From: Nicotiana tabacum
Taxonomy: Eukaryota; Streptophyta; Magnoliopsida; Solanales; Solanaceae
DNA: 64,000 nucleotides
Direction: 5' to 3'
NCBI RefSeq assembly: GCF_000715075.1
Contig: NC_134097.1
Location: 64,451,190 to 64,515,189 of the forward strand
Part shown: positions 9,417 to 63,466 of the stretch, piece by piece
Layout of the letters: every line of letters starts with the position of its first letter
Numbering within the stretch: position 1 is the stretch's first letter
Notes under the pieces: generated by a model
What the model saw: the letters and a program-made list of their open reading frames with translations, nothing else
Told to the model about the DNA's origin: nothing
Databases searched by the model: none
Made by a program: the position numbers and the translations under genes

Positions 9417-10268
9417 TTAATAACAGAGGCTGGCGGATTCACAGCTGACAACAAATGTATTGGCATGCTTTGAAGAACATGTGAAATCAATACAGCCCGG
9501 CCACCACGATAGAAGTTTACCTTTCCATGATTGAAGCTTGTCAATCACTTTTTTAACAAGCCCCTCATAGTAGTCCATTTTCCTTCTAGCATAAAAGATT
9601 GGACAGCCTAGGTAAGTGAAAGAAAATTCCTGCTCGCCAATTCCAGTCACTCTTTTCACCTTGTTCAAAACCTCTAAACTTGTTGAATGATGCATATAGA
9701 TTGTTGATTTTGCCTTGCTAATTAATTGTCTACCAGCTACCTCATAGGAACTCAACACCTCCATAATTAGTTGTAATGAAGTAGCGTGAGACGATGAGAA
9801 GATGATAGTATCATCAGCATACACTAGATGATTAACCTTAGGGCTCCACTTTGGCAAGCCAAATCCTCAAAAGTATAAGTTTAAATGAAGAGCATTCAAA
9901 CCTCTATACATAGCTTCAACAACTAAAATGAATAATGTAGGTGATAACGGTTCCCCTTTCTTAACTCCTCTGGTGGCCATTAATTAAAATTGAATACCAA
10001 TTATTAGACACAATCCCAAACACTACATCAATGAACCTTTCACAAAAGCCCATTTTCCTTAACACTTTAGTCATGAATATCCAGGAAAGCCTATCGTAAT
10101 CTTTGGTCATGTCTAATTTCATTACCACATTAGGTCCTGCCCTTGTCCTTAACCTAATGTCAGTAATGATTTCTTGAGTTAACAACACATTTTCTACAAT
10201 GCTCCTTCCTTTAATAAATCCTGCTTGTTCATCGGAGATGAGATTAGGCAATAGAGGAGCAAGTCTTT
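9417..10268 (-). pseudogene. LINE reverse transcriptase, C-terminal two thirds
   Basis: Two open stretches carry reverse transcriptase motifs. The first (about 9961-10268) has LISDEQAGFIKGRSIVENVL and KLDMTKDYDRLSW. The second (9417-9857) has the catalytic YADD box in LVYADDTIIF, then YLGCPIFYARRKMDYY. In live elements the first block reads D-M-x-K-A-YDRL; here Ala is Asp. Frame breaks between 9857 and 9961 and after 9417 show decay. The N-terminal part of the RT lies beyond the insertion, at 26248-26560. Confidence 0.88.
10264..10268. repeat. Target-site duplication, left copy (TCTTT)
   Basis: TCTTT directly left of TGTTACACC; the same 5 bp occur at 26248-26252 directly right of GGTGTAACA. 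A 5-bp duplication is the size expected for Gypsy integrase. Confidence 0.88.
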
Positions 10269-12964
10269 TGTTACACCCCATTTTTTCGTACGTGAGAGTG
10301 CGTCGTAAGTCGATTGATATAAGCTCAGAAATAAGATTATATTTGGAAGAAAATAAAGTAAGTTAATCATGTTACCTTGGAGGTTACAAATATTTAAGAT
10401 AATGAATAACGAGTAGTAAGAGGGTTGGAAAGCTTAGAAGCTAAACCAATTGAAGAAAATAAGTTTTGTCGAAAGTCGACAAGTTTGGAACATTATAACA
10501 TGTACTTTGGGGTGAGACTAGGGTTATTAACATTATAAGGAGGTTATTCTATGATTTATTTTAGTCGTATGATAGTCATTTGCTACATTTTGAAGGCAAG
10601 CAAATTTTGGAACAAAAGTTGACAAAGGTCATCACAAGTTACATTCATAAATGTGCTGAAAATTAGGTCAAATTTAGATGAGCTTTTCTCCAAATATACT
10701 TGGAATTATGGGGTGATCTACCTACCAGATTGAATATCTACGAGTCTAGTTTCTAACAAATTAAACCATTTGTTAATACGACATCAGAGTAGAGAGATAT
10801 TCGCATTTTTGCGAGACTGCACAAGCAGCTCCCAATGGGACCCACTTAGGCAGTGGTCGGCCTACTTCACTTTATAAACAATTTGGACGCCTATTTTTAA
10901 GTCATTTTCAACTCAATTTCGTCTCCGAACTTCTCCTAACCCTTCTAAACAGATACCACAAGGGTTTGAAGTGATTACACCATATTTCAACATCAAAACT
11001 TAGTTATATTGAAGAACAACACCTCTTTGAGGTTGTGTTGTCATAAAGGATTGTTGTGGGCTGTGTTTGGCTGGAATTCCAAGTTGTTGCTACTGGCTAA
11101 GGTGAGTATAACAGTCTACTAATTGTGCTTAAGCTTGATTGTATGTTGGTTAAGTTGTTAGGATGATAAACTACAAGATAATACTTGGATTAGCTTAAGT
11201 CACTTCTATGGTGTTGTATTGCCATTGAGGGTTGTTTCAAGCTGAATATAACTTGGATTTCAACTTGAAGTTACTATAGGAGGTATGTGTATTGTGTTAT
11301 TGCATGTGCTTAAAGTTATCTTGATGTTGATTAAGTTAAATGGATGGAGTAGACATGAACTTGTGAATAAAGTTACTAATTGAAGATAGTTGGAGTTGAG
11401 GATTGTTTCCTTTGTTATAAATATATGGTATAAGGATGGAATAATTGATGAATGACTTCAATATCATGTTAGTGATACTTTTAAGTTAATGTAAGAAGTC
11501 TATAAGGGTGATATGGGTTATACGGATTCCAATCGGAGCTTGCCGCTCTCCGTGAAGTAGTTGTGACTTGTTGTTGTATATGGTGTCTTGTTATTGATAT
11601 TTATATGTTGATGTATTTCTCTAGTTGTTGTTGTTGGTATATGGTATTGGAGGAGACCCTTGTTACATGGAAGATGCTGCCCGAATTTACATAATGAGCT
11701 ACTAGCTTAAGTTACAGACTTAGACTTTGCTCAGCACTAATTTTGAATCTCCTTATACTGCGATAGATTGAGTTGACTTGTTTGAAGAGTTTCTTGGAAG
11801 GTATTAAGGACTCAATGGGTTTAAGGTATGTTAAGCACTTCCTTCTTTCTTTTGGCATGATCTAAAATGAAATGAATATAAACGATACACTATTTCATAA
11901 CGAATCTACTCCTAGCAACTAAGGTTGCCCGTGTTATTCTTTCCTTATAAAGTTATTCTAAGCAAGTATGTATAATCCTTGAATCCTATTGAGGTTCATA
12001 TTGATGGTATGGATGTCAATAATGTTAATCAAGGGTGCGACGACCTTATGTCACTCCGAAAGGTTTAGAACGTTATTCCATGAGTCTAGCATGCATTATA
12101 TATAGTATCTATTTTACTCTAACGATCCGCGCTATAGTCGGCCAGGTATGGCACCTATTGTGCAACCACTGATCAGTTGGGTTAACCGAGCTCTACGTGG
12201 CTGGGTATGATTCTATCAAGTCTTATGATGGCCGGGTACATTTTACCGAGTCCTCTTTGAGGCCGGGTACGATATGATGATGATGATGCCCACAGAGGCA
12301 AATGTTTTTAAAAGTTTATGTATATATATGTATTATGCATTTCATGTCAGTAGCCCCCAGAGGCACTAAGATGTTACAAGTTGCATCTCCTCAATCTCTC
12401 TTTACATTACTGTTCTTGTTTATGCTTTCCTGCCTTACATACTCGGTACTTTATTCATACTGACGTCCATTTTGCCTGGGGATGCTGTGTTTCATGCCCG
12501 CAGGTCTCGATAGACAGGTTGACATTCCTCCTAGTAAGCTATCAGCTCAGCGGAAGGTGTTGGTGCACTCCACTTGCTCCGGAGTTGCCTAGTTGGTCAG
12601 TATGATTTGGACATGTATTGATTGGTATGGCGGAGCCCTATCATGACTTTTATGATGTGTATGTACTCTTAGAGGCTTGTAGACATATGTAATGTATATG
12701 AAAGATTGTTGGCCTTATCGGCCTATGTTCAGTGTACGAGTGTTCATGTTGGTCTTATAGGACTGTATGTCACATGTATAAGTTTGTATTACATGTTGGG
12801 TCGTCCTATGTCAAGTATTCCCTTATGTTTTATTCTGTTTATATCATGACGGACCTTCCGGCTCATTTACCCATGATGGTATGACAAGAAAGATATGTTA
12901 CGTTGGTACTCGATTGGGTAAGGCATCGGGTGCCCGTTGCGGCCCTCCGATTTGGGTCGTGACA
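10269..12964 (+). repeat. Left LTR of the inverted-LTR element
   Basis: A 2696-bp LTR starting TGTTACACCCC and ending GGTCGTGACA. It is followed 4 bp later by an initiator-Met-tRNA primer site. The mirror copy is 23552-26247. Visible differences between the arms are scattered substitutions and short indels; by eye roughly one base in ten to fifteen differs, so the copies are old. A small open frame inside both arms (12381-12605 and 23908-24135) is LTR sequence, not a gene. Confidence 0.88.
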
Positions 12965-12968
12965 AAAA

Positions 12969-12980
12969 TGGTATCAGAGC
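12969..12980 (+). promoter_or_regulatory. Primer binding site, left arm
   Basis: TGGTATCAGAGC is the complement of the 3' end of plant initiator Met-tRNA, the usual primer of Gypsy elements. Confidence 0.9.
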
Positions 12981-14050
12981 AGTTCTTTCCTAGGGAGTCT
13001 ACAAGCCGTGTCTAGTAGAGTCTTGTTTATAGGTGTGTTATGCATCACACTTATAAACAGGAGGCTACAGGGCATTTAGGACTGTCCCTCTTTTTTCTTA
13101 TTCTAGATTGTGTGGTAGAGCTCAGTTGTAAGAATTCAAACTCCTAAATTTGACTTTAGTCATAATACAATGATACCTACATCCTCAAAGACAGTTGGTA
13201 AGAGATTGAATGTGGCTCTAGAAGAGCTGAGTTGGAGCAAATCGATTTTGCATCATGCTTATGATGAGTAAATGTAAGGTCTTCAGTAGATTATATGTGT
13301 ACTATGATGTGTGAGCTTCTTGATAAGGAGCCCCAAGGCATGAATATCTATCCATCCATATGGTAACAAGAGATAAGAAAATTATGAGGTGGATACGAGT
13401 TTCAATAAGTAAATGAAGCAACTTGAAAAAGAGTACGAGGTACCCAACTAATGAAGATTATCAATATTTGCAATTCAAGCAGAGAAATATAAACATTTTA
13501 AGTTACCTTCAACAGTAACAGAGTTATGTACAATTGGCCACGCCCATCTCAGTTATGCCCTATAGGAGTTGACAGATATAGTTTAAGAGAAGAAAGGGAT
13601 AGCAAGATCCAGTTGGGGTTAGAGTAACCCAAAATGGTAGATGGATTATTATCATTAGCTAATATTTTCGAAAGATGTTGCAAATGTGATAATAGTTCTC
13701 CTTGTGAGACACCCCGATGGTGCAATCTAGAATAGTACATTTAGATTTGAATACTATAATATCTGGAAAAATTTAGAAGATTGGCACTGGAATCCTAGAA
13801 GGGATAAATATTTACCTTTGTATGGCTCCCGTCCCTAGTAAAGAGAGAATGTTAGGTGACCCAAAGAGCCAGTGGATGGAGCAAGGGGAGATAAAATCAA
13901 AAGAATATTTTGTTGAAGTTTTTAGAATAAGGTAATAAACAGAAATATTAACATGAGAATAAGAAGAGAGTAAATAAAGTATTATGAGTAAGATGTGATA
14001 AATAGGTGATAACAGTAAATCAAAATATGACACGGTGATAGAGTGACATT
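12981..14050 (+). other. Leader region of the left arm
   Basis: Non-coding sequence after the primer site. The first 320 bp (to about 13303) are repeated in inverse orientation at 23212-23535. The rest is unique to this side and ends where the CACTA element starts. No open gag was found. Confidence 0.6.
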
Positions 14051-14082
14051 CACTACTAGAAATCCGGTAAAAAGCGACCACA

Positions 14083-14700
14083 AAAAGCGACCAAAGTTGG
14101 CCGCTTATAGGCCTAAAAGCGACCAAACATGCATGGTCGCAATATTGCTGGTCCCTTTATTTTAGGGACCAAAGTTGGTCGCTAATTAGCGACCAACTTT
14201 GGTCTCTAAGGTAAAAAGACCAAATATTCCGGGTAAAGACTATAACGACCAACTTTGGTCGCTTTATTATTTTAATAATATAATTTTGGCGACCAAAGTT
14301 GGTCTCTAAATGTAAAATACGTTATTTATTTATTTATTTATTATTAATCATAAAAAAGCGACCAACTTTGGTCTCTAATCCAAATATTATATTTTAAAAT
14401 CTAAAAAATAGAGACCAAGATTGGTCGCTTTTTTATTTATTTTTTATTTTTTTTTTAAAAATAAGCGACCAAAATTGGTCGCTAACTTCAAGAAATAATT
14501 TTTTTTAATTATAAGCGACCAACTTTGGTCGCTATATTTCCAGAAATTATTTTTTTAAAATAGAATAGCGACCAAAGTTGGTCGCTTTTGAGAAATCTGG
14601 GTTAAATAGAGACCAAGGTTGGTCGCTATTGCCCAGAAAATTGTTTTTTTTTTTAAGGGAAAAGCGACCAATTAGCGACCAAAGTTGGTCGCTTTTCTTG
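14083..14700. repeat. Left subterminal repeat cluster of CACTA
   Basis: About a dozen copies, in both orientations, of GCGACCAAAGTTGGTCGC or its reverse, some with a TCTCT variant end. They are separated by A/T-rich spacers of 20-50 bp. In related elements such subterminal motifs bind the transposase accessory protein; that role is inferred here. Confidence 0.85.
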
Positions 14701-14781
14701 GTATATTTTTGCCAGAAAATGCCTGTTTTGGCAGCTACACCACCTGCCAGCTTACCAAAAATCCTAAACATGCATTTTATG

Positions 14782-14814
14782 CCAACAACAACAACAACAA
14801 CAATAAACAACAAT

Positions 14815-14847
<33 letters not shown>

Positions 14848-14848
14848 A
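14782..14848. repeat. (CAA)n microsatellite
   Basis: An imperfect CAA/AAC repeat of about 67 bp. It produces the poly-Asn and poly-Leu open frames seen on the two strands, which are not genes. Confidence 0.9.
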
Positions 14849-14944
14849 AAAAGCAACAAAGTATAAAGTTCAATAGAACTAACACATTAAGCTAACAAAA
14901 CTAAGTTAACGCTTATTACAAGCACATTCGAAAACTGGTTCTAT

Positions 14945-15077
14945 TGTCTAGTTCAAAGTATATAAAGTACTCAAGGAGTGTTCTTTCAGCATCCTCATCC
15001 GAAAGTTGGATTGCCTCGCCTGACTCATTAGGTGGCTGACTGCGTATGAATTCCCCCACAACAGCTGTGAAGCGAAC
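14945..15077 (-). pseudogene. En/Spm plant transposase-protein remnant, exon B
   Basis: The minus-strand frame starting right after an ATAG acceptor reads VRFTAVVGEFIRSQPPNESG and then IQLSDEDAERTLLEYF. This resembles the C-terminal conserved block of the Ptta/En/Spm plant transposase family. It lies downstream of exon A (15162-15251) with a plausible intron between them. Nothing of the catalytic TNP2-like protein is present. Only this tail remains, so no function is expected. Confidence 0.55.
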
Positions 15078-15161
15078 CTATAAGAATAATTATATTGAAT
15101 TAGTATTTCAAAATTTATATAAAAGTATATCAAAATACTTAATGAAAAGTAAAAAACTTAC

Positions 15162-15251
15162 ATGTATAGTCGAGGCTCGACCCTCAACCCACCTTTCTGG
15201 ATCAGTCTTTTTCTTCTTCTTTACAATACGAGTCTCATTGAATAACTCATC
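15162..15251 (-). pseudogene. En/Spm plant transposase-protein remnant, exon A
   Basis: The minus-strand frame gives LFNETRIVKKKKKTDPERWV followed by EGRAS, then a CAT|GTAAGT donor. The pattern T-x-x-KKK-x-D-x-x-RWV-x-x-RA is characteristic of the same En/Spm-associated protein family as exon B. The upstream end is uncertain. Confidence 0.5.
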
Positions 15252-15336
15252 TTACTTCATTGGCATCATAAAGTTGTCTGGTGACTTTGGTGATTATCCT
15301 CGTGGTACTATTACTCGGGATAAACTTAGATATAGA

Positions 15337-15692
15337 GAGTAACTTGGATACAGTACCCGACATGGTGTGTCTTTGATCAATTGTTATTCTCATTAGCGAC
15401 AATGATGATGAGAAGGCAATGGCATGTGTTTCAAACAGTGATGGTGTAGGTAAGAATTTAACATTTCCTAAGCAGATAAAAGAAGAGGTTATAGAGGAAT
15501 TCTCTACTTCCTCTTGGAAAATGAAGTAGAGAATTCCTCTATAACCTTTTCTTTTATCAATTTAGGAAATGTTAAATTCCTACCTACACCATCACTGTTT
15601 GAAACACATGCCATTGCCTTCTCATCATCATTGTCGCTAATGAGAACAACAATTAAAGGCACACTATGCCAGGTACTGTGTCTAAGTTATTC
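15337..15692. repeat. Long near-perfect hairpin (arms about 170 bp)
   Basis: Left arm 15337-15510 and right arm 15523-15692 are inverse copies with few mismatches and a 12-nt loop. The inner stem runs CTACTTC/GAAGTAG. A transcript through it would fold into a long dsRNA-like stem. The left arm carries a stop-free plus frame (DNDDEKAMACVSNSDGVG and on) that I do not recognise; it may be a captured coding fragment. Confidence 0.85.
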
Positions 15693-15765
15693 TTTGTGGA
15701 AGTTGCATTGCATGTCTAATAAAGTCATCAACCCCTTCTACAAAATCCTCCCGCAATCCTAAATT

Positions 15766-18150
15766 TCAATTCATATCCACAAAAGTTCAATTCATATCCT
15801 AAAGGCTCAATTCATATCATAAAAGTTCAATTCATACACAAAAATTTCAATTCATATCCTAAAAGATCAATTCATACACAAAAATTTTAATTCATATCCT
15901 AAAGATTCAACTCATATCCACAAAAGTTCAAGTCATATCCTAAAATTTCAATTTATAAACTAAAATTCCAATACATAAACCAAAACTTTCAATTCATATC
16001 CTAAAGGTTCAATTCATATCCTAAAAGTTCAACGCATATCCACAAAAGTTCAAGTCATATCCTAAAATTTCAATTTATAAACTAAAATTCCAATACATAA
16101 ACTAATATCCAAAAGGTTCAATTCATATCCTAAAGGTTTAACTCATATCCACAAAAGTTCAAGTCAAATCCTAAAATTTCAATTTATAAACTAAAATTCT
16201 AATACATAAACCAAAACTTTCAATTCATATCCTAAAGGTTCAATTCATATCCTAAAGGTTCAACGCATATCCACAAAAGTTCAAGTCATATCCTAAAATT
16301 TCAATTTATAAACTAAAATTCCAATACATAAACCAAAACTTTCAATTCATATCCTAAAGGTTCAATTCATATCCTAAAGGTTCAACGCATATCCACAAAA
16401 GTTCAAGTCATATCTTAAAATTTCAATTTATAAACTAAAATTCCAATACATAAACTAATATCCTAAAGGTTCAATTCATATTCTAAAGGTTCAACTCATA
16501 TCCACAAAAGTTCAAGTCATATCCTAAAATTTCAATTTATAAACTAAAATTCCAATGCCTAAACTAAAAGTCCAATTCATATCCTAAAGATTCAATTCAT
16601 ATCCTAAAGATTCAACTCATATCCATAAAAGTTCAAGTCATATCCTAAAATTTCAATTTATAAACTAAAATTCCAATACATAAACCAAAACTTTCAATTC
16701 ATACCCTAAAGGTTCAATTCATATCCTAAAGGTTCAACGCATATCCACAAAAGTTCAAGTCATATCCTAAAATTTCAATTTATAAACTAAAATTCCAATA
16801 CATAAACTAATATCCTAAAGGTTCAATTTCATATCCTAAAGGTTCAACTCATATCCACAAAAGTTCAAGTCATATCCTAAAATTTCAATTTATAAACTAA
16901 AATTCCAATACATAAACTAATATCCTAAAGGTTCAACTCATATCCACAAAAGTTCAAGTCATATCCTAAAATTTTAATTTATAAACTAAAATTCCCATAT
17001 ATAAACTAAAAGTCCAATTCATAAACTAATATCCTAAAGGTTCAACTCATATCCACAAAAGTTCAAGTCATATCCTAAAATTTCAATTTATAAACTAAAA
17101 TTCCAATACATAAGCCAAAACTTTCAATTCATATCCTAAAGGTTCAATTCATATCCTAAAGGTTCAACTCATATCACAAAAGTTCAAGTCAAATCCTAAA
17201 ATTTCAATTTATAAACTAAAATTCCAATACATAACTAAAAGTCCAATTCATATCCTAAAGATTCAATTCATATCCTAAAGATTCAACTCATATCCACAAA
17301 AGTTCAAGTCATATCCTAAAATTTCAATTTATAAACTAAAATTCCAATACATAAACCAAAACTTTCAATTCATATCCTAAAAGTTCAATTCATATCCTAA
17401 AGGTTCAACGCATATCCACAAACGTTCAAGTCATATCCTAAAATTTCAATTTATAAATTAAAATTCCAATACATAAACTAATATCCTAAAGGTTCAATTC
17501 ATATCCTAAAGGTTCAACTCATATCTACAAAAGTTCAAGTCATATCCTAAAATTTCAATTTATAAACTAAAATTCCAATACATAAACTAAAAATCCAATT
17601 CATATCCTAAAGGTTCAATTCATATCCTAAAGGTTCAACTCATATCCATAAAAGTTCAAGTCATATCCTAAAATTTCAATTTATAAACTAAAATTCCAAT
17701 ACATAAACTAAAAGTCCAATTCATATCCTAAAGGTTCAACTCATATCCACAAAAGTTCAAGTCATATCCTAAAATTTTAATTTATAAACTAAAATTCCAA
17801 TACATAAACTAATATCCTAAAGGTTCAATTCATATCCTAAAGGTTCAACTCATATCTACAAAAGTTCAAGTCATATCCTAAAGTTTCAATTTATAAACTA
17901 AAATTCCAATACATAAACTAAAAGTCCAATTCATATCCTAAATGTTCAATTCATATCCTAAAGGTTCAACTCAAATCCACAAAAGTTCAAGTCATATCCT
18001 AAAATTTTAATTTATAAACTAAAATTTCAATACATAAACTAAAAGTCCAACTCATATCCTAAAGGTTCAATTCATATCCACAAAATTCAAGTCATATCCT
18101 AAAATTTTAATTTATAAACTAAAATTCCAATACATAATCCTAAAGGTGCA
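15766..18150. repeat. Tandem array, about 20 units of 105-125 bp
   Basis: Each unit is built from TTCAATTCATATCCTAAAGG, TTCAACTCATATCCACAAAA, GTTCAAGTCATATCCTAAAA, TTTCAATTTATAAACTAAAA and TTCCAATACATAAACTAA, in that order. Unit length varies because sub-blocks are added or lost. The sub-blocks themselves look like diverged copies of a roughly 20-bp motif, so the array has two repeat scales. It is non-coding and lies wholly inside the CACTA element. Confidence 0.9.
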
Positions 18151-18408
18151 ACTCTTAGGGTTTCTTCTCTTCAAACAATTTCTTCCCCAAATTAGTAGGT
18201 AAAACTAAATATTTTGGACTAAATGTATTAATAAGAACCCTAAAAAATGCAAATAATATATAACTTTGAACCCTAATATGGTTGAGCTAACTTTGAACCC
18301 TAACATGGAGAAATTAAACCCTAATATGGAGAAATTAACTTTGAACCCTAACATGGTTGAACAAATAATATATAACTTTGAACCCTAACATGGATAAATT
18401 AAACAAAA

Positions 18409-18640
18409 TCACTGTATTTCGAAAAAAACAAAGAAAGGAGAAAGAAACCTACCTTGGGAATGGAGGTCGCCGGCGGTGGAGCTGCTACCGTCGGTGGTCG
18501 TCGGTGGCGTGGGTGGTGCCGCTGCTGCTGGGAGTCGGAAGTCGGGTGGGAGGGGGGTTTGAGTGTGAGAGAGAAAAGAGAAATTTTGGGGAATTTTTTT
18601 GAAAGAATGGGAGGGGAAACCCGATTTTGACACTGGAATT
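18409..18640 (-). other. Leader-like segment at the transcription-start side of CACTA
   Basis: The minus strand has a pyrimidine-rich stretch, a short GC-richer open frame (MSKSGFPSHSFKKIPQNFSF then Pro/Ala/Thr-rich) and a CCAAGGTAGG splice-donor-like end. This looks like the first exon and 5' UTR of an element transcript, or a captured promoter-proximal fragment. No known protein was recognised. Confidence 0.35.
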
Positions 18641-18796
18641 AAAAATAGCGACCAACTTTGGTCGCTATTTTGGTAGCAAAATAAGTTTTGACTTTTTGAC
18701 CAAAATAGCGACCAAAAAAAAATTAAATTACTTTTAATTCAATTTAAAATTATGTACATATGTAGTATAAATTTAGGATTTTAATTCAATTTAAGC

Positions 18797-18797
18797 T

Positions 18798-18862
<65 letters not shown>

Positions 18863-19151
18863 TGATATAAGTCAAGACGTTTTAATTTATTGTTAATATA
18901 TATACATGCATATGAGTAGGTTATAAGTCGATGAATCAATTTACAAGTGTATCAATACCTAAAAGAACTCGTCCCTGTGTTCCGAGCGCTTCATGTTCTT
19001 ATACTATACTATACTATACTATACTATACTATACTATACTATACTATACTATACTATGCACTAAGTATTAGTGCATTAGTTAATATTATATCGAATATAG
19101 CTTATATATATATTAACAATAAATTAAAACGTCTCGACTTGTATCAATTAA

Positions 19152-19220
<69 letters not shown>

Positions 19221-19375
19221 CTTATATACTATATACTATATTATACTATATATATCGAATATACCTTGATATATAATACACTTAGTATATATACTATACT
19301 ATACTATACTATACTATACTATACTATACTATGCACTAAGTATTAGTGCATTAGCTAATATTATATCGAATATAG

Positions 19376-19443
<68 letters not shown>

Positions 19444-19505
19444 TACATACATACATACATACATATATTAATTGATATAAGTCGAGACATTTTAATTTAT
19501 TGTTA

Positions 19506-19538
<33 letters not shown>

Positions 19539-19615
19539 GGTTATAAGTCGATGAATCAAATTACAAGTGTATCAATATCCAAAAGAACATGTCCCTGTGT
19601 TCCGAGCGTTTCATG

Positions 19616-19693
<78 letters not shown>
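18797..19693. repeat. (TA)n and (TATAC)n microsatellite cluster with nested inverted repeat
   Basis: Long TA runs occur at about 18797-18858, 19153-19218, 19375-19437 and 19617-19692. ATACT pentamer runs are at about 19000-19056 and 19293-19332. A unique 48-bp block (18870-18905 region, TTTTAATTTATTGTTAATAT) recurs inverted at 19098-19150 and again direct at 19485-19510. The block around TGTTCCGAGCG appears twice (18976 and 19598). All YIYIYI open frames here are low-complexity artefacts. Confidence 0.85.
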
Positions 19694-19701
<8 letters not shown>

Positions 19702-19860
19702 GCACGCTTTGTAGTACTGCTTAACTGCATATATAGCATGTTAGAGTATATTTTAGTCTATTCATCCTTTGTATTACAAAAGTGTTAGCGGGTTACATTT
19801 ATATTATTTAGATAGTAAATACAAAAGTGATTTTTAATTTTGACCATTGTTGACCTGAAA

Positions 19861-20483
19861 AGAGACCAACTTTGGTCGCTAAATATACATAAATTTAAAT
19901 TAGCGACCAAAGTTGGTCGCTAAATTTAAATCAAATTTATTTATATTTTATATAATATTTAAAATAATAATATAATTGTTAAACGTTAGAACTCGGTCCC
20001 AGATTAGCGACCAAAGTTGGTCTCTATTTTCGTAAGCGACCAACTTTGGTCGCTAAATTTGAATTATATTTTTTTATATTTTATAAATTTTTTTAAATAA
20101 AAATATAATTATTAAAATTTTATAATTGGGTCCCATTTTAGCGACCAAAGTTGGTCGCTATCTGCTTACCCCTTAATTAGCGACCAACTTTGGTCGCTAA
20201 TTTAAGTTATATTTATTTATATTTTATAATTTTTTTAAAATAATATTATAATTATTATAATTATATAAGTGGGTCCCCCTGTAGCGACCAACGTTGGTCG
20301 CTAATCTCAGTATACCTTTGACCAAGCAAGTCTGACCAGTCCGGTCAATATTTTGACAAAATTAGCGACCAAGTAGCGACCAACCTTGGTCGCTAATGTA
20401 TATCAAATAATTATTTTATTATTTTCGCCAATTTAGCGACCAACTTTGGTCGCTTTTCTTGACAGACCAACTTTGGTCGCTAA
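19861..20483. repeat. Right subterminal repeat cluster of CACTA
   Basis: About a dozen copies of GCGACCAACTTTGGTCGC and its reverse complement, mirroring the left cluster. The last copy ends at 20483 and is followed by non-element sequence with no CACTA terminus. Confidence 0.85.
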
Positions 20484-23198
20484 AGTTTGATCAAGGAAAA
20501 GACAAGAGGTGACAGGCCTTGAGAAAATAATAAAGTATAGGCCAAAGGTCGTATCCTCATTCGAGAATTGAGTTGGTGACTCGAACATGATTACTAGAAA
20601 GAAAAATTAGACCCCCATAGTAACAGAATTTAGTATGAGATAGTAAACAAGATAAAAATAAAATCGAACATGAATTAGGGATCGAAAGAATTGGTAATAG
20701 TCGGCATCATGAGAATTTCAGAGATCAGCCTTTAAAGGTCATTTAGGAAGACGCTTCCCTAAAGGAAGTACTCTGAGCAATGTTAATCTTAAGGGACTAA
20801 GTGTGCTAGTTACACTAGGTGTCACCTTCGTGCATAAGAAATTCAGTTATTCCTGGTACATAAGGGTTACCATAAGGCGAGTAAGGGTCATTAATGATGT
20901 GAAAAGATGCCAAAGATGAAGAGGGAAAACATCTATAGGTAGATATTCGTAGCACTAAGTCTTAGTACTCTCCGAAAGGGGGGAAGATGGTGTGATATGG
21001 TATTAAGTCGGGGTTATTAGTTAAGGTAACTATGGAATAATAAAGGAAGAATGTGGTAGAAAGGAGAAATGAATGAGATTGTATTTGTTTAGACCCTACA
21101 GATATGTTACGACTTCAGAACATTATGCCAGCACGCCGTCGAGGAGAGGCAATAAGGGTTCCTACACCAGATGTTATTGATAAATAAGTGTGAGTGAACA
21201 CTTGATACATAAGGAGCCAGTACGAGTGGTAAGTTAAGACAAAGAAAATAACTCAAGAGAGATTATGCGGAATATAGATATGACAATGGACCAACGAGTA
21301 GTTAGAAGTTGATTCGGGAAGAGCCTAGTTATGGCTAGACAAGAGAATACAGACAAATCATGCAGATTGTGCAAGGTAAACGTAGTGAACCCCAACATAG
21401 TGAATTCGGTCTCGCAGATATAATGACATCGTGATCCTTGAGAAATATTTGGATAGGATTTAGGGTAGTTAAAAGTATCGTATAAGTGCTATAGAGATAA
21501 AGGAAAGTGCCACCAGGGAGATTGCCAAAATTTCAGTTCAGAAGCAACTCTACGAGCACAAGGGCGCGGAGGTAGGTAACTAGGGATAATAATAGGCAAG
21601 TAACAACATCAAAAATTCCTTCGGGTATACCATGTGATCAGCTTGCAGCTTTATAGGAGTCAGAGGATCTCCCTTAAGTAATACAATGAAAGACTAGCTG
21701 AGGAAAAAGGAAGAAGGCTTCAACCTAAGCATAGTAACTTGAAGAAGAAATGATCTTGTAACAATAGTCTCACTACAACATTGTATACACTATATAAGAA
21801 AGTGGTACCTATCGTGGATGATGAACGGGAAGTAAGTATTTGAGATCATATGAGTTATAGGAAATTTCAGTATTCGCGGGCACTAATATAAGCCAAGCAT
21901 TCATGCAACAAGTGGAAGAACGACAAGAAAAAGTAATTGCCTATGTTTAAAGGCAACTGAGAAGGCATGAAAGGAAATCTATGGTGCTAGCAAGTTAAAG
22001 AAGGGTTACGAATAGTATAAATAGATCAATGTAGGTCACAAGATAAAGTATCGTAGAGTGACAAGGTTTTAGGTAGAAAGGAGTAAGGATAAGAAAAGGC
22101 GAGTGAGAAGGTAACAAGAACAGGTGAATCCTCGGGATTAAACCCATCACAATAAGAGAGCTGATGGCTTCCGTAAGTTATTAAAAGCTCGGTACAGCCT
22201 GAATGAACTCAGAGGAGTCTAAGACTAGGTGCATTTAAAAGAGATGGAATGCTGCCCTAGTAGTAGAATAAGGGTTTAATTGTGATAAATGATAAAGAAT
22301 AACATTTAGGCCTTTGATTGAGTAATGATTTAAAGAGAATGGATTTCATGAATTGCACAGGATTAGAATATCCCCATAAGATGAATCATATTGGATGCTA
22401 TGAAATACGGTTATTGAAGTATAGTATCGTCCCTAAATGGATCAAGCAAATCACTTAAGATGTTCCTCGATGAGACGCGAGCCCCAGTAACAATGTATTA
22501 CGTAAGAGGTTTCAAGTTATGAGTGGTATATTAAGATCAACATTAAGCTGGATCAACAATGGATAGATAAAAGTTAAAAAGTATGATAGAAGATTAGGTT
22601 GTCATTCTTAAGATGAACAATAATGAGGAAGTATTAATGGACATAGATTTATACATACATGATAAGCGGTGAGAGAGTAACCTGGAGTTGGGTGGTAGAC
22701 ATCGGTAATAATAAACCGAAGTAAGAGTTATGGTGTAGTATGACCTACCTAGTTGTAGTAAATCCATAAGCACAGATAACTGAGGCTATGAAACAAGATA
22801 TAGCAAAAGTCGTAAGTTCGACAAAGTACCGAGCGAAGAACTTTAGTACACCTATAGATGCCCAGAGGGACAACTTGTCATAGTACTATATATGTTCACA
22901 AAGTGAGGCCTAGAGATTGGATAAAAGCTGGGGGGAAGGAGAGAAGAGTTGCATAGGTGACATACAAGGTTAGAATCGTACAGGCTGCATGAAAGAAGGT
23001 AGAAACAGTTACGAGATTAGAAGAATTTCGACCACAAGTCGTGGTGTGAGAAAGATGCCTGAAGGGGGAATGACCTAGCCTTTGGATTTGTTCGCCGAAT
23101 AGCTCCCTAGATGGCAAAGACAATGTAAAAGTTTTCGTAAGAGCTATTGGTTAAGAGATGGATTAGTGCATCAGTCAACATTCGACGATGAATGTTCC
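20484..23198 (+). pseudogene. Collapsed Gypsy internal region (gag start, RNase H remnant)
   Basis: An ATG at 21125 opens MPARRRGEAIRVPTPDV and then stops; this resembles the basic N-terminus of chromoviral gag proteins. At about 21870-21995 the plus strand gives AFMQ, then VIAY and RQLRRHERK with a stop between, which resembles the RNase H block (LMQ...VIAYASRQL...HE). Only about 2.1 kb separates the gag start from the polypurine tract, against about 4.5 kb or more in complete elements, so most of pol is lost. Stops occur throughout. The remainder has nothing I can assign. Confidence 0.5.
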
Positions 23199-23210
23199 AA
23201 AGGGGGGAGA
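23199..23210 (+). promoter_or_regulatory. Polypurine tract at the arm junction
   Basis: AAAGGGGGGAGA on plus. A 3' LTR (TGTTACACC) should follow at once, but the sequence goes straight into the inverted leader of the right arm. Confidence 0.8.
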
Positions 23211-23535
23211 TTAGTAAACACATAATCTACTGAAGACCTTACATTTACTCATCATAAGCATGATGCAAAATCGAGTTCCTCTAACTCAGCTCTTCCAGAG
23301 CCACATTCAATCTCTTACCAAATGTATTTATGGATGTAGGTATCATTGTATTATGACTAAAGTCAAATTTAGGAGTTTGAATTCTTACAACCGAGCTCTA
23401 CCACACGATTAAGAATAAGAAGAAAGAGTGACAGTCCTAAATGCCCTGTAGCCTCATGTTTATAAGTGTGGTGCACAACACACCCATAAACAAGACTCTA
23501 CTAGACACGACTTGTAGACTCCCTAGGAAAGAACT
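23211..23535 (-). repeat. Inverted leader of the right arm
   Basis: This is the reverse complement of the leader at 12981-13303, including the TCTTCAGTAGATTAT block near its inner end. It shows that the right arm is a copy of a 5' end, not a flipped 3' LTR. Confidence 0.85.
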
Positions 23536-23547
23536 ACTCTGATACCA
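23536..23547 (-). promoter_or_regulatory. Primer binding site, right arm
   Basis: The minus strand reads TGGTATCAGAGT, one mismatch from the initiator-Met-tRNA complement, starting 4 bp after the LTR end as in the left arm. Confidence 0.85.
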
Positions 23548-23551
23548 CTTT

Positions 23552-26247
23552 TGTCACGACCCAAATCGGAGGGCCGCAACGGGCACACAATGCCTTACCC
23601 AACCGAGTAACGTAATATATCTTTCTTGTCATACCATCATGGGCAAATGGTCCATAAGGGCCGTCATGATATAACCAGAATAAAACATAAGGCAATACTT
23701 GACATACGACGACCAAACATGTAATACAAACTTATACATGTGGCATACGGTCCTATAAGACCAACATGAACACGCGTACACTGAACATAGGCTGACAAGG
23801 CCAACAATCTTTCATATACATTACATATGTCTACAAGCCTCTAAGAGTACATACACATCATAAAAGTCATGATAGGGCTCCGCCATACCAATCAATACAT
23901 GTCCAAATCATACTGACCAACTAGGCAACTCCGGAGCAAGTGGAGTGCACCAACACCTTCCGCTGAGCTGATAGCTTACTAGGAGGAATGTCAACCTGTC
24001 TATCGAGACCTGCGGGCATGAAACACAGCATCCCCAGGCAAAATGGACGTCAGTATGAATAAAGTACCGAGTATGTAAGGCAGGAAAGCATAAACAAGAA
24101 CAGTAATGTAAAGAGAGATAGAGGAGATACAACATGTAACATCTTAGTGCTTCTGGGGGCTACTGACATGAAATGCATAATACATATATATACATAAACT
24201 TTTAAAAACATTTGCCTCTGTGGGCATCATCATCATCATATCGTACCCGGCCTCAAAGAGGACTCGGTAAAAATGTACCCGGCCATCATAAGGCTTAGTA
24301 GAATTGTACCCGGCCACGTGGAGCTCGGTAAATCCAACTGATCAGTTGTTGCACAATAGGTGCCATACCCAGCCGACTATAGCACGGCTCAGTAGAGTAA
24401 AATTGATACATAAATAGATACAATATATAATGCATGCTAGACTTATGAAATCACGTTCTAAACCTTTTGGAGTGACATAAGGTCGTCGCACCCTCGATTA
24501 ACATTATTGACATCCATACTATCAATATGAACCTCAATAGGATTCAAGGATCATACATACTTGATTAGAATAACTTTATAAGTAAAGAACAACCTGGGCA
24601 ACTTTAGTTGCTAGGAGTAGATCCGTTATGAAATAGCATATCGTTTATGTTCATTTCATTTTAGATCATGCCAAAAGAAAGAAGGAAGTGACTTAATATA
24701 CCTTAAACCCGTTGAGTCGTTAATACCTTCCAAGCAACTCTTCAAACAAGTCAACTCAATCTATCATAGTATAAGGAGATTCAAAATCAGTGCTGAGCAA
24801 AGGCTAAGTCTGTAACTTAAGCTAGTAGCTCATTTACGTAAATTCGGGCAGCATCTCCCCTGTAACAAGGGCCTCCCCCAATACCATATACCAACAACAA
24901 CAACCAAAGAAATCCATCAACATATAAATATCAATAACAAGACACCATATAACAACAACAAGTCACAACTACTTCACGACGAGCTGCACGCTCTGATTGT
25001 AATCTGTATAGCCCATATCACCCCTTATAGACTTCTTACATTAACTTAATAGTATCATTAACATGATAACAAAGTCATTCATCAATTGTTCCATCCTTAT
25101 TCCATATATTTATAACAAAGGAAACAATACTCAACTCCAACCTCAATTAGTAACTTTATTCACTAGTTCATGTCTACTCCATCCATTTAACTTAATCAAT
25201 ATCAAGTAACCTTAAGCACATGCAAGAACACAATTCACGTACCTCCTAAAATAACTTCAAGTCAAAATCCAAGTTATATTCAGCTTACAACAACCCTCAA
25301 TGGCAATACAACACCATAGAAGTGACTTAAGCTAATCCAAGTATTATCTTGTAGTTTATCATCCTAACAACTTAACCAACATACAAGAAAGCTTAAGCAC
25401 AATTAGTAGGCTGTTATACTCACCTTAGCCAGTAGCAATAACTTGGAATTTCAGCCAAACACAGCCCAAAACAATCCTTAATGACAACACAACCTCAAAG
25501 AGGTGTTATTCTTCACTATAACTAAGTTTTGATGTTGAAATATGGTGCAATCACTTCAAACCCTTGTGGTATCTGTTTAGAAGGATTAGGAGAAGTTTGG
25601 AGACGAAGTTGAGTTGAAAACGAATTAAAATTAGGCGTCCAAATCGTTTATAAAGTGAAGTAGGTCGATCGCCGCCTAAGTGGGTCCCATTGGGAGCTGC
25701 TTGCGCGGTCTCGCAAAAATACAAATATCTCTCTACTCCGATGTCGTATCAATAAATGATTTAATGTGTTAGAAACTAGACTCGTAGATCTTCAATTTGG
25801 TAGGTAGATCACCCCATAATTCTAAGTATATTTGGATAAAAACTCAGCTATATTTGACATAATTTTCAGCATATTTATGAATGTAACTTGTGATGACCTT
25901 TGCCAACTTTTGTTCCACAACTTGCTTGCCTTCAAAACGTAGCAAATGACTATCATACGACTAAAATAACTCATAAAATAACCTTCTTATAATGTTAATA
26001 ACCCTAGTATCACCCTAAAGTACATGTTATAATATTTTAAGCTTGTCTACTTTCGAGGAAACTTATTTTCTTCAATTGGTTTAGCTTCCAACCCTCTTGG
26101 TACTCATTATTCATGATCTTAAATATTTGTAACCTCCAAAGTAACATGATTAACTTTCTTTATTTTCTTCCAAATATAATCTTATTTATGAGCTTACATC
26201 AATTGACTTACGATATACTCTCACGTACGAAAAAATGGGGTGTAACA
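23552..26247 (-). repeat. Right LTR of the inverted-LTR element
   Basis: A 2696-bp copy of the left LTR in opposite orientation. On minus it starts TGTTACACCCC and ends GGTCGTGACA. Compared with the left arm it has scattered substitutions and small indels, for example a loss of about 12 bp near the AAGCTAAACCAATTG block. Confidence 0.88.
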
Positions 26248-26802
26248 TCTTTAATGAGTAACTCTTGAAAAAACTTTGTTAACGACGTTGCTCAAACTAA
26301 TAGGTCGCACATTAAAAAAAGTAGCAACTTCCTTTTTCTTAGGAAATAGCACCAGATTTGTGTGAGTAATAAATCTTGGTAGTTCATGACCATTAAATTA
26401 CTGCCTCATCATGTTAAATACATCATCCCCTATTATGTCCCAATAGCTATGGAAGAATTTCCCAGTAAATGCATCAAGTCCTCCAGTACTATTCCTATTT
26501 AAGCCAAAGACGACCCTCTTGACTTCATCTTTCGTAGGTTGTTTCACCAGTTTTTAATTTTGATCAAAAGTTACCATGTTAGGAACATGATCAATGATCC
26601 CAAAAGTTGTAGGAATGACATCCTCATGGAATTGATTCTGGAGAAAATTGACTGCTTCAGCTGCCATTTGTTCATTGCCCTCCATCCAGTTACCTTCACT
26701 ATTCTGAATTCTTTTTGATTGTAATATTCTTCTCCTATCATTCACTTGTGCATGAAAAGAGTTTAGTGTTGCGATCCCCATCCTTAAACCATAACATGCC
26801 AA
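26248..26802 (-). pseudogene. LINE linker and RT N-terminus
   Basis: 26554-26802 reads MGIATLNSFHAQVNDRRRIL then IQNSEGNWMEG, the region between endonuclease and RT in plant LINEs (...RWMKLGDANTKFFHA...). Further left, frames with LVLFPKKKEVATFFNVRPIS and LSNVVNKVFS correspond to the start of the RT domain (P-K-x-x-x-RPISLCNV-x-K). Frame shifts and stops interrupt it. Confidence 0.75.
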
Positions 26803-27115
26803 ACTTTTGCTTCCAAAATTCTTCTTTTAGAGACAAAAATCTAATAAGTTCAACCTAAACTTTGTTAAGCCTTTCCCTGTTAAGCTTTGTTGAATTGATT
26901 TCAAACTGTGCTTCATGAACAAGTACCACCTCTTATAAGCTAGAAATCTTTTGGAAAATATCCCCATATGTAGCCTTGCTCCATACTGATAATGCTCGCA
27001 TCAACTCTTTCAATTTGTGGTTGAAAATTATGAATGGATTACTACTAACGTCTATCGTCCAGTTTTCCTTCACAACATCTTGAAATGTGTCATGTTCTGT
27101 CCAAAAATTAAGGAA

Positions 27116-27837
27116 TCAAAATTTCTTCTTCACAAGTATAAAATCTGGAATGCACGTGATTAGTAAGGGATTGTTATCCGATTCTATTTTGGACAAATGA
27201 ATAATTTCCACACTTGGGTACATTTGTTGAAACTCCATGTTTGCTAATACTCTATCCAACCTCTTAAAAATGCAATCTTCTTCAGCCATTCCATTCCACC
27301 AAGTGAAGATACTACCTTTAAAACCAAGATCATGCAAGTTGCATGTAGTTACACAATGCCTAAAATCATCAATCTCATTAAGATGTACTGGTAGTCCTCC
27401 AAACTTCTCCTCCTTATCCCAAATCACATTGAAATCACCCCCAACTATCCATGGGATGCCATATTAGAAGCCAAAGCGTATAATGTGTCCCACAGTTTAA
27501 TCCTCTGAATAGCATCGCACTTGGCATAAACTAAGGTAAAAATTACCTCCTATTGAGAATTAGAATCCACTAGTCTTAAGGTCATCTGATGCTCCATATC
27601 AAATATTACTGTGACTTCATAATCTTCATCCACAAATGCCCATATCTTGTTAGAAATATTTACAAAAGCCTGAGCAAATCCTGTCCTTCTTATGTATCTC
27701 TCTAATTTTCTAGATTGCTGCATTGGATCCATTAATCCCACAAATGTGAAGTGTTGTTGTCTACGCATTGTAATTAGCCTTTCAAAGGCTTGCTGTGTAT
27801 TTACTGATCTAATGTTCCAAATTAATGCATTCATCAT
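27116..27837 (-). pseudogene. LINE apurinic-type endonuclease domain
   Basis: ORF2 begins MMNALIWNIRSVNTQQAFER, matching the WN-x-RG-like start of the EEP endonuclease family (usual NIRG is NIRS here). A second open stretch (27116-27427) has DDFRHCVTTCNLHDLGFKGS then FTWWNG and FKRLDRVLAN, the conserved T-W-x-N and R-L-DR blocks. In live elements this enzyme nicks target DNA. A stop near 27550 and a frame change near 27430 break it. Confidence 0.8.
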
Positions 27838-27911
27838 GAATTGGCAGATTTGGAGAGTGTCCTTTTTATTTGAATTCCTATACCAAGGACAAGAGCATTA
27901 GAAGTTTCTTT

Positions 27912-44041: not shown

Positions 44042-44053
44042 GCTCTGATATCA
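44042..44053 (-). promoter_or_regulatory. Gypsy-1 primer binding site
   Basis: The minus strand reads TGATATCAGAGC, one mismatch from the initiator-Met-tRNA complement, just inside the 5' LTR. Confidence 0.8.
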
Positions 44054-44789
44054 ACTTGTCATGACCTAGATTTCCCACCCTCGGGAGCCGTGATGGCGCC
44101 TACTAGTGAAAGCTAGGCAAGTGAATTGTTCTAATTGCTTAACATTTTTCATATATTTTAATTCTTTAACGATGGTGAACAAACATCATATAAACAACAA
44201 ATATATAAAGCGGAAGACTGAGACGTAACAATTTAACAATGATACCAATGCTAATCCATAACATAAACTACCCAGAACTAGTGTCACAATATCACAGACT
44301 ATCTAGGAATATTACAAATAAGGGTCCGAAAGATAAATACAATGTTGTCTCTGAAATACATAAAAGAAACAGAATGGAAAGATAGAAGGAGACGCCAAGG
44401 CCTGCGGACACTCCAGGACTACCTCGGGTCGCCTGAATGGGCTGAAGTCAACAACCTCACTGCGGTCCAAAAGCTGCAGCACCGGGATCTGCACACAGTG
44501 CAGAGTGTAGTATCAGCACAACCAACCCCGTGTGCTGGTAAGTGCCCAGCCTAACCTCGGCAAAGTAGTGACGAGGCTAGGACCAGACTACCAAATAAAC
44601 CTGTGCAGTTTAATCATATTTAACGGAAATAAAAGCAGATATTTACAATTAAAGATGGGAGGGAAAAACATGTTGCGGGGAATATCAGATAACAACAGAA
44701 TACCAATAGAGGAATGTAAAGAAAAGCCATAATTCAATTGCCAACAAGAATAAGAAAAACAACACAATATTCACTTTCATTTCTTTCTT

Positions 44790-54969: not shown

Positions 54970-54981
54970 GCTATGATACCA
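54970..54981 (-). promoter_or_regulatory. Gypsy-2 primer binding site
   Basis: The minus strand reads TGGTATCATAGC, one mismatch from the initiator-Met-tRNA complement. Confidence 0.75.
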
Positions 54982-55536
54982 ACTTTTCACGACCCACGTT
55001 CTCCTTCTGTGAACTATTGTGGCGGCACCTAGTCTCTACGACTAGGTAATCCTAGCAATTTGCAAAAAAAGGAAAACAAGATACAAAACTAGCAATTTCG
55101 GTAACATAATAACAAAGTTTAACAATGCCGCTCGGCATATATACAACTTTACTCTCTCAAACTGAACATAAGACAATCCCGAAACCCGGAATCTCATGAA
55201 ATCAAGCTAGAGAAAATTGCATAGTGTTCTAACTCCAGGATGTCTTAACAAAAGTAAATACAAAAAGTCTAAAGCTGAGGGGAGAATAGAGAGGGACTTC
55301 TAGGACTACGGACACGGCAGATATACCTCGAAGTCTCTGATATCGCCCACCTCACTGATAGAATGGCTGAGTAGAAGAATTTGGATCTGCACATGAAAAA
55401 CATGCACAAGAAGGACATGAGTACACCACAGCGGTACTCAGTAAGTTCCAAGCCTAACCTCGGTCGAGTAGTGACGAGGAAGGTTAGGGCCCTACTGATT
55501 ATAGCTGAAAAACGAGGTAAAACAGTATAGAATACG

Positions 55537-62495: not shown

Positions 62496-62567
62496 TTTTA
62501 GGAAAATGACTCTTTTTTTTCAAACGTTTTTTTTTTCTATTCTTCTTCTTTTCTTTTTTTTTTTGGT

Positions 62568-63456
62568 ATCTTAGGAGAAAGATTCATCAGACTAAGATTT
62601 TGATCCTAGGAGAAGGTTCGTCAGACTAGGTCTCTATCTTAGGAGAAAAATTCATCGGACTAAGATTTTGATCCTAGGAGAAGGTTCATCAGACTAGGTC
62701 TTGTTTTTTTGGCATCTTAGGAGAAAGATTCGTCAGACTAAGATTTTGATCCTAGGAGAAGGTTCGTCAGACTAGGTCCCTATCTTAGGAGAAAAATTCG
62801 TCGGACTAAGATTTTGATCCTAGGAGAAAGTTCATCAGACTAGGTCATTTTTTGTTTTTTGGTTATCTTAGGAGAAAGATTCATCAGACTAAGATTTTGA
62901 TCCTAGGAGAAGGTTCGTCAGACTAGGTCTCTATCTTAGGAGAAAAATTCATCGGACTAAGATTTTGATCCTAGGAGAAAGTTCATCAGACTAGGTCATT
63001 TTTTGTTTTTTTGTTATCTTAGGAGAAAGATTCATCAGACTAAGATTTTGATCCTAGGAGAAGGTTCGTCAGACTAGGTCTCTATCTTAGGAGAAAAATT
63101 CGTCAGACTAAGATTTTGATCCTAGGAGAAGGTTCATCAGACTAGGTCATCATTTTTTTTGGTTATCTTAGGAGAAAGATTCATCAGACTAAGATTTTGA
63201 TTCTAGGAGAAGGTTCGTCAAACTAGGTCTCTATCTTAGGAGAAAAATTCATCGGACTAAGATTTTGATCCTAGGAAAAAGTTCATCAGACTAGGTCATT
63301 TTTTGTTTTTTGGTTATCTTAGGAGAAAGATTCATCAGACTAAGATTTTGATCCTAGGAGAAGGTTCGTCAGACTAAGTCTCTATCTTAGGAGAAAAATT
63401 CGTCAGACTAAGATTTTGATCCTAGGAGAAGGTTCATCAGACTAGGTCATTTTTTT
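62568..63456. repeat. Tandem array B (37-40 bp units in a ~145-bp higher order)
   Basis: Alternating units: CTTAGGAGAAAGATTCATCA + GACTAAGATTTTGAT, and CCTAGGAGAAGGTTCGTCAG + ACTAGGTCTCTAT. A larger period of about 145 bp is set by a T-rich spacer (TCATTTTTTGTTTTTTGGT). Confidence 0.9.
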
Positions 63457-63466
63457 TTAATTTTAA

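Follow-up and report, generated by a model that had tools for sequence, protein, structure and literature searches.

How did a retrotransposon come to lie in a LINE with its two ends in opposite orientation, and does this arrangement record one integration or a later rearrangement? The locus is found in a 64-kb stretch of Nicotiana tabacum DNA (hereafter the window), in which positions 10269–26247 correspond to a single retrotransposon insertion in a LINE.

Anatomy of the insertion

On the plus strand, TGTTACACCCC begins at position 10269, and its reverse complement runs up to 26247, which bears out the inverted terminal arrangement given in a preliminary description of the locus. That description spoke of a 16-kb retroelement with LTRs in inverted orientation; the span and the inversion both stand, but the element itself accounts for about 9.5 kb, the rest being a nested CACTA-like insertion of 6.4 kb, and the arms are not LTRs alone, since each of them (3,036 nt) consists of an LTR, a primer-binding site (PBS), and a leader of about 325 nt (Table 1). 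The arms, located at 10269–13304 and 23212–26247, are 92.7% identical over 3,053 alignment columns.

The locus was compared with the features of an LTR retrotransposon, in this case a non-autonomous, large derivative. Both LTRs have TG...CA ends (TGTTAC...GTGACA), and the PBS TGGTATCAGAG, complementary to tRNA-Met, begins after four spacer bases past each LTR end. The target duplication, TCTTT, falls within the 4–6 bp of this class, and the polypurine tract (PPT) AAAGGGGGGAGA is present, but the LTR adjoining it belongs to the inverted arm. The two LTRs are inverted here, versus direct in four relatives. The outer tips on both sides of the element are U3 ends, and the U3 tip GTGTAACA resembles the U5 tip GTCGTGACA. 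Only a few bases separate the plus-strand priming site from the start of the inverted 5′-end copy, and homology at this inner junction is at most short, with later mutation blurring 1–5 nt. The body contains no long open frame that would show the pol order of the Gypsy superfamily, integrase after reverse transcriptase, so the element is at most a candidate member of it. The body is split by the nested insertion, presumably CACTA-like judging by its motifs, which must be later because both body parts are only 13–25 nt apart in the four relatives. Neither the LTR nor the body had relatives elsewhere in the 64-kb window, and scans of viral contigs gave no match.

Table 1. Features of the inverted insertion and its LINE target, in window positions.
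Feature	Position	Strand	Remarks
LINE, downstream part	9417..10263	(-)	Reverse-transcriptase part downstream of the insertion
Left target-site duplication	10264..10268	.	TCTTT
Left LTR	10269..12964	(+)	TGTTAC...GTGACA, 2696 nt, U3 end outward
Tract homogenised between arms	12222..12716	(+)	4/493 differences vs 163/2165 elsewhere in the LTR
Primer-binding site	12969..12979	(+)	TGGTATCAGAG
Leader	12980..13304	(+)	Part of inverted arm
Body, left part	13305..14050	(+)
Nested later insertion	14051..20490	.	CACTA-like (presumed) left end CACTACTAGAAA, GCGACCA/TGGTCGC repeats; right edge approximate
Body, right part	20491..23198	(+)	Orientation as in left part; no long open frame
Polypurine tract	23199..23210	(+)	AAAGGGGGGAGA; normal 3′ LTR expected about 4 nt further
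Inner junction	23210..23212	.	PPT joined to reverse complement of leader; exact base blurred by 1–5 nt
Inverted leader	23212..23536	(-)
Inverted primer-binding site	23537..23547	(-)
Right LTR	23552..26247	(-)	Inverted, 2696 nt, U3 end outward
Right target-site duplication	26248..26252	.	TCTTT
LINE, upstream part	26253..27897	(-)	Part upstream of the insertion

Target site and interrupted LINE

The perfect target duplication and the LINE frame running across the site, both claimed in the preliminary description, were found again. Among 2,722 perfect 11-nt inverted pairs lying 1–20 kb apart in the window, identical outer 5-mers occurred in one, the 10269/26247 pair, and the chance of a match between two 5-mers drawn at random from the window is P = 0.0015. 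A duplication of 5 bp is usual here, since TCTTT also flanks both the solo LTR L012 and the normal copy L018/L019. When the flanks were joined through one TCTTT, a continuous LINE frame was obtained with a single TAA codon at the site itself, further stop codons being located farther from it. A 150-residue stretch of this joined LINE (TAA as X) scored 45.5 bits against Pfam RVT_1 over profile positions 5–99, compared to 29.7 bits over positions 26–99 for the left piece alone. Additionally, the uninterrupted version of the insertion site is represented by the LINE paralog L060, which spans it with 595 ungapped bases at 91% and a single target 5-mer, CCTTT.

Divergence and kinship of the arms

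The difference between the arms is alike in the LTR (6.3%) and in the PBS plus leader (6.8%). At the sites where the arms differ, comparison with a solo LTR placed 77 changes on the right arm, 76 on the left, and 14 on neither; such even, independent divergence argues against a fold introduced during assembly. Within the LTR, one tract is nearly identical between the arms (Table 1), a sign of at least one exchange of sequence between them, probably by gene conversion. At plant substitution rates of about 7e-9–1.3e-8 per site and year, the 7.5% divergence outside the homogenised tract would give an age of roughly 3–6 million years.

With regard to kinship, the U3 distance between the arms is 0.075, versus 0.088–0.097 for the closest five among the other copies fetched, and four sites are exclusive to both arms, while any pair of an arm and another copy shares at most two. 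In a tree of the arms and the fetched copies, the arms fall in an unresolved star, and these sequence comparisons suggest only weakly that they are each other's closest relatives. A 24-mer picked as common to both arms and absent from the copies fetched by then was found at nine other places and is therefore no private mark of the arms. Given this weak sisterhood and the shared 24-mer, the cDNA may have been derived from two related RNAs.

Direct-LTR relatives and the search for further cases

Relatives were searched for in the same genome by short sequence patterns. In four of them (L014/L015, L018/L019, L020/L021, and L022/L023), the LTR, PBS, leader, body, and PPT follow in the same order as at this locus. 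In all four, a direct LTR starts 4 nt after the PPT (AAAGGGGGGA-ATGA-TGTTAC or variants), whereas at this locus an inverted LTR-PBS-leader takes the place of the direct 3′ LTR. The copy L018/L019 also shares TCTTT on both sides with this locus.

The exact pattern of a PPT followed by the inverted leader occurs at one place in the genome, namely this locus. The PPT motif itself matched exactly at 3,616 sites, the first 100 listed of which were LTR starts as judged by eye, and 75 of the 3,616 passed a filter excluding ordinary LTR starts; a reversed control pattern gave 31 places. Because the filter demands two non-T bases, about 56% of random abnormal sequences pass it, which puts its sensitivity at about 56%; sites whose last base is G are dropped by both patterns. 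By eye, 65 of the 75 places were LTR starts shifted or altered by small differences, one was the window, and nine were without a clear LTR start. No inverted leader or LTR was found at the eight of these nine that were examined (C22:194077803 was left out): four (L029, L038, L047, L056) had no match to the retrotransposon family, L042 had LTR pieces on the upstream side only, L058 had body positions 1481–1807, not the body 3′ end, directly before the motif, L057 had a direct LTR piece following it, and L059 had 34 nt of the body end and then unmatched sequence. Likewise, among 100 listed LTR places on one contig, none of the 27 neighbouring LTR pairs less than 20 kb apart lay on opposite strands, all being same-strand. 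The recurring structural class envisaged earlier thus failed to appear: the exact junction pattern, the examined filtered places, and the LTR pairs yielded no second case. As filter and sample are incomplete, these counts suggest at most that two-U3-ended inverted copies are rare.

Origin of the inverted copy

The reading we favour, with a probability of roughly 0.78, is that an aberrant retrotransposon cDNA, formed at the PPT either by template switching or by the joining of cDNA ends, integrated once through its two U3 ends. The inverted leader begins where the direct LTR of the relatives follows the PPT, which counts for integration of a single cDNA. Together with the target duplication, the uninterrupted LINE paralog, and the PPT at the inner junction, this makes entry of an already inverted cDNA, as first proposed, better supported than a later inversion. 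The cDNA would have been normal from the 5′ LTR via the PBS, leader, and body up to the PPT. At the PPT/U3 boundary, the place of plus-strand priming, the growing or nicked molecule may have been joined in reverse to a leader, either its own or that of a sister molecule, which would have put an inverted leader-PBS-LTR in place of the 3′ LTR and produced a linear cDNA with U3 ends at both tips. Integrase would have inserted this molecule with an ordinary 5-bp duplication; the CACTA-like element would have jumped into the body afterwards, and the arms would later have exchanged sequence at least once. We infer that formation preceded integration, that the priming site had a role in it, and that integrase acted on two U3 ends. 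Two identical U3 ends are usable by integrase in Rous sarcoma virus concerted-integration assays with U3-sequence substrates, as described in passages of PMC10209032, and in cereals, passages of PMC1950507 attribute single-integration complexes to abnormal template switching.

The aberrant molecule could have formed by a template switch or snap-back, or by end joining of two cDNAs. In the latter variant, integration would have been preceded by host repair linking two linear cDNAs end to end, one of them broken at the PPT nick and the other in the leader. We consider it a serious candidate, at somewhat under even odds: the inner junction shows short homology at most, the sisterhood of the arms is not clear, and the PPT boundary is a natural plus-strand discontinuity, but the arms have four exclusive sites, more than either has with any other copy, and a single molecule would need fewer events. 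A rearrangement after integration, in which an ordinary element, or two opposite elements at one target, was altered by deletion, inversion, or gene conversion until an inverted 5′ end replaced the 3′ LTR, appears improbable. Rearrangements of this kind abound in plant genomes, and the arms do appear to have swapped sequence, yet exactness would be needed twice, at the target duplication outside and at the PPT/U3 boundary inside; the intact duplication and the PPT junction thus argue against late rearrangement. Moreover, recombination between inverted repeats would leave the outward-facing end unchanged, and two separate insertions would have to use the same 5-bp target without any loss of LINE sequence. 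A simple inversion of one LTR was rejected because the right arm also carries the PBS and leader; that two unrelated elements had fused was rejected as well, since a single plus-strand body ends at its own PPT.

The configuration was read from assembled sequence alone, and an assembler could have folded or misplaced the second LTR of an ordinary element. This is very unlikely, since the 163/2,165 differences outside one tract are split evenly between the arms, so that neither is an assembler-made copy of the other, and since LINE continuity and the target duplication are intact. In outer shape, with its arms inverted and its target duplication short, the locus recalls a DNA transposon whose terminal inverted repeats are 3 kb long. 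The chance of this is close to nil: such an element would have inverted ends lacking LTR and PBS, and inverted relatives, whereas here the arms hold an LTR boundary and PBS, the body holds a PPT, and relatives of the same sequence have direct LTRs.

Significance and comparison with known systems

If integration through two U3 ends is the true reading, the locus preserves a reverse-transcription error that occurred in nature, with both junctions readable, the plus-strand priming site inside and a normal target duplication by two U3 ends outside, and a plant retrotransposon integrase can do without a U3 end paired with a U5 end. The locus also provides a precise search signature, a PPT with an inverted leader behind it where U3 should be, by which integrations of such cDNAs can be counted. 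Inverted 3-kb arms could form long hairpin transcripts, and the homogenised tract suggests that they could also exchange sequence. As no more than one such locus was found, the case for the mechanism is built on a single event. It is doubtful, though conceivable, that the plus-strand priming site is a recurrent switch point, occasionally giving two-U3 cDNAs able to integrate concertedly and leaving head-to-head copies that escape LTR finders designed to look for direct repeats.

To our knowledge, a target duplication is absent in DIRS-1 type elements, in contrast to the 5-bp duplication found here, and the relatives of this element have direct LTRs. The likeness lies in the termini, described as inverted LTRs in passages of PMC5633606, according to which a tyrosine recombinase replaces integrase and circles are thought to integrate. 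The matching passages of PMC2253517, PMC2151762, PMC6189423, PMC5633606, PMC8786324, and PMC3536649 do not describe an inverted, palindromic, or head-to-head LTR insertion. The complex LTR retrotransposons of Triticeae, rice, and maize (Sabot and Schulman 2007, PMC1950507, in the passages concerned) likewise involve abnormal cDNA and one integration, deduced from the 5-bp duplications on either side and the similarity of the outer LTRs; unlike this locus, they are fusions with a third, internal LTR, and the words "inverted" and "PPT" do not occur in the text of that paper. Finally, the two-LTR circles formed by autointegration in Ty elements and retroviruses, as presented in passages of PMC4751563, have LTRs in inverted orientation, as here; those circles are extrachromosomal and arise by self-integration, whereas this locus would represent the chromosomal insertion of a linear cDNA with two U3 tips.

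Organization of the element and its arms

Pattern searches covered the 3.996-Gb genome in 700 contigs, in which the window occupies C18:64451190-64515189. In the self-comparison of the window, the two inverted arms were 92.7% identical over 3,053 columns. Each arm is directly bordered on the outside by TCTTT and is composed, in order, of a 2,696-nt LTR with the termini TGTTAC...GTGACA, 4 spacer bases, the primer-binding site (PBS; TGGTATCAGAG) and about 325 nt of leader, so the arms are two 5′-end copies facing each other. The inverted LTRs of the preliminary description were accordingly recovered from 10269 and 26247 inwards, as parts of longer arms that include the PBS and leader. The 16-kb size needed correction: the two body parts lie 13-25 nt apart in four direct-LTR relatives, so the segment between 14051 and about 20490 was inserted later. 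It starts with CACTACTAGAAA and is bordered on both sides by GCGACCA/TGGTCGC repeats (palindromes), its right edge being approximate; from these motifs, we take it to be CACTA-like. Long AT repeats were also observed within it.

Features of the window
Feature	Position	Strand	Basis or description
Left arm	10269-13304	+	self-comparison of window
Right arm	23212-26247	-	self-comparison of window
Body, left part	13305-14050		
Body, right part	20491-23198		
Polypurine tract (PPT)	23199-23210		
Internal palindrome	15336-15693		358 nt, in nested insertion
Tandem array	15756-18154		units of ~20 nt, in nested insertion
LTR-end and PBS-like sequence	44043-44065	-	other LTR element
LTR-end and PBS-like sequence	54971-54993	-	other LTR element
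Open frames	38.9-43.0 kb	-	near 44043-44065
Open frames	53.9-54.5 kb	-	near 54971-54993
Tandem repeats	62555-63458		units of ~146-150 nt, ~94-96% alike

The pattern TCTTT followed by TGTTACACCCC occurred at 10 places in the genome, and the stretches at eight of them (the window and a place on C5 left out) were compared. Four contained the body, always arranged as LTR, PBS, leader, body, LTR; the remaining four gave LTR matches alone. A direct LTR start was matched immediately after the body in three of the four body-bearing relatives; in the fourth, L020/21, the match was too weak for listing, and the letters there read TGTTACACCCC. TCTTT was found on either side of a solo LTR (L012) and of the normal relative L018/19 (C9:56874483-56892482), indicating that this family usually makes a 5-bp duplication. 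Within the leader of L018/19 there is also an additional LTR end. Leader positions 245-250 are matched on either side of it, giving it the appearance of a nested solo LTR that has made a short duplication of its own.

Target site and inner junction

The element splits a minus-strand LINE, one half of which lies on each side. When the halves are connected through a single TCTTT, the reading frame continues from one to the other, with a TAA codon located at the site and more stops farther out, and the RVT_1 match reaches 45.5 bits for the joined 150 residues versus 29.7 bits for the left piece. The single paralog found with up to 3 mismatches allowed (C14:71631662) aligned to the joined LINE over 595 bases at 91% identity, gap-free across the site; relative to this paralog, the LINE has neither lost nor duplicated anything around the site except 5 bp. 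Matching outer 5-mers were present in only one of the 2,722 perfect 11-nt inverted pairs of the window, the element's own. Both the perfect target duplication and the continuous LINE frame described earlier thus held, the latter with its TAA codon.

At the 3′ end of the body, the sequence in the relatives is AAAGGGGGGA-ATGA-TGTTAC or a slightly different form of it. Two copies, L028 and L055, have a GGGGGGAGA-ATGATGTTA variant at the PPT, with L028 matching the window body as far as 23210. Where ATGA-TGTTAC would be expected after GGGGGGAGA, the window has TTAGTAAACACATAATC, the leader in reverse complement, so the inverted part starts within a few bases of the plus-strand priming point and expected U3 start. 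The leader breakpoint at about 13304 has no evident landmark, since the leader runs on into the body in L018/19 and L020/21.

Divergence and apparent exchange between the arms

Across 3,019 aligned positions, 192 differences separate the two arms (K2P 0.067), at similar rates in the LTR (6.3%) and in the PBS plus leader (6.8%). Polarised by the solo LTR, 77 changes fell on the right arm, 76 on the left and 14 on neither. The tract 12222-12716 has 4 arm differences in 493 positions, against 163 in 2,165 elsewhere, and here each arm is about 9% from the solo LTR (about 11% elsewhere). The longest run without a substitution, 323 nt, was equalled in none of 20,000 random placements. Together, the run and the near-identity of a tract still about 9% from the solo LTR indicate an apparent exchange between the arms after insertion, a pattern that would fit gene conversion between inverted repeats.

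Across the initial 900 nt of U3, arm-to-arm distance was 0.075, the arms were 0.088-0.097 from the five nearest copies, and seven more copies, fetched via a shared 24-mer, lay at 0.26-0.34. The same 24-mer had been considered a candidate marker exclusive to the arms and was rejected as such (11 places, 9 outside the element). Among seven close rows, 4 sites were exclusive to the arms, 13 to L012 and another copy (L039), and at most 2 to one arm with another copy; the tree of close copies did not resolve the arms as sisters.

Recurrence in the genome

The exact PPT-to-inverted-leader pattern was found at one place in the genome, the element itself. The TTCCAAAGGGGGGA motif, counted with a last base other than G, occurred at 3,616 places (1,826 + 1,790) versus 43 for the reversed control, and all 100 among the matches listed read as LTR starts by eye. 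Filtering out ordinary LTR starts left 75 of the 3,616 PPT places (31 for the reversed control). Besides the window, the LTR start was unclear by eye at nine, and an inverted leader or LTR was seen at none of the eight examined; these PPT searches could reveal only inner junctions located at the PPT. An LTR 24-mer had 975 exact places; among the 100 matches listed, all on C1, 27 neighbouring pairs lay less than 20 kb apart, every one on the same strand, and 18 had the 6.4-6.7 kb spacing of a normal element. The inverted structure is not common within the sampled places, which give no support to the recurring structural class raised as a possibility in the preliminary description.

Origin of the inverted copy and comparison with known systems

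Replacement of the 3′ LTR by an inverted 5′ end after integration would need exactness at two places, the target duplication and the PPT, and is improbable. Recombination between repeats, by our reasoning, would be unable to exchange an outward U5 end for an outward U3 end and still leave the target duplication intact. A single integration of an already inverted cDNA, preferred over later inversion in the preliminary description as well, would account at once for the intact duplication and the PPT junction. Plus-strand synthesis is primed by the PPT, according to excerpts of a review (PMC12789967). At a discontinuity there, a template switch, snap-back self-priming or end joining could each give an inverted product, and the linear inverted cDNA would then be inserted through two U3 ends. 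Such integration is plausible because the LTR tips are alike (GTGTAACA, GTCGTGACA) and because RSV integrase has been assayed for concerted integration with U3-sequence substrates, as excerpts of PMC10209032 describe.

In the literature covered on inverted, palindromic or head-to-head LTR insertions, mostly outside subscription journals, a chromosomal U3-U3 copy was not found described. Excerpts of published work describe template-switch complexes from single integration in cereal LTR retrotransposons (PMC1950507) and inverted two-LTR circles from autointegration (PMC4751563).
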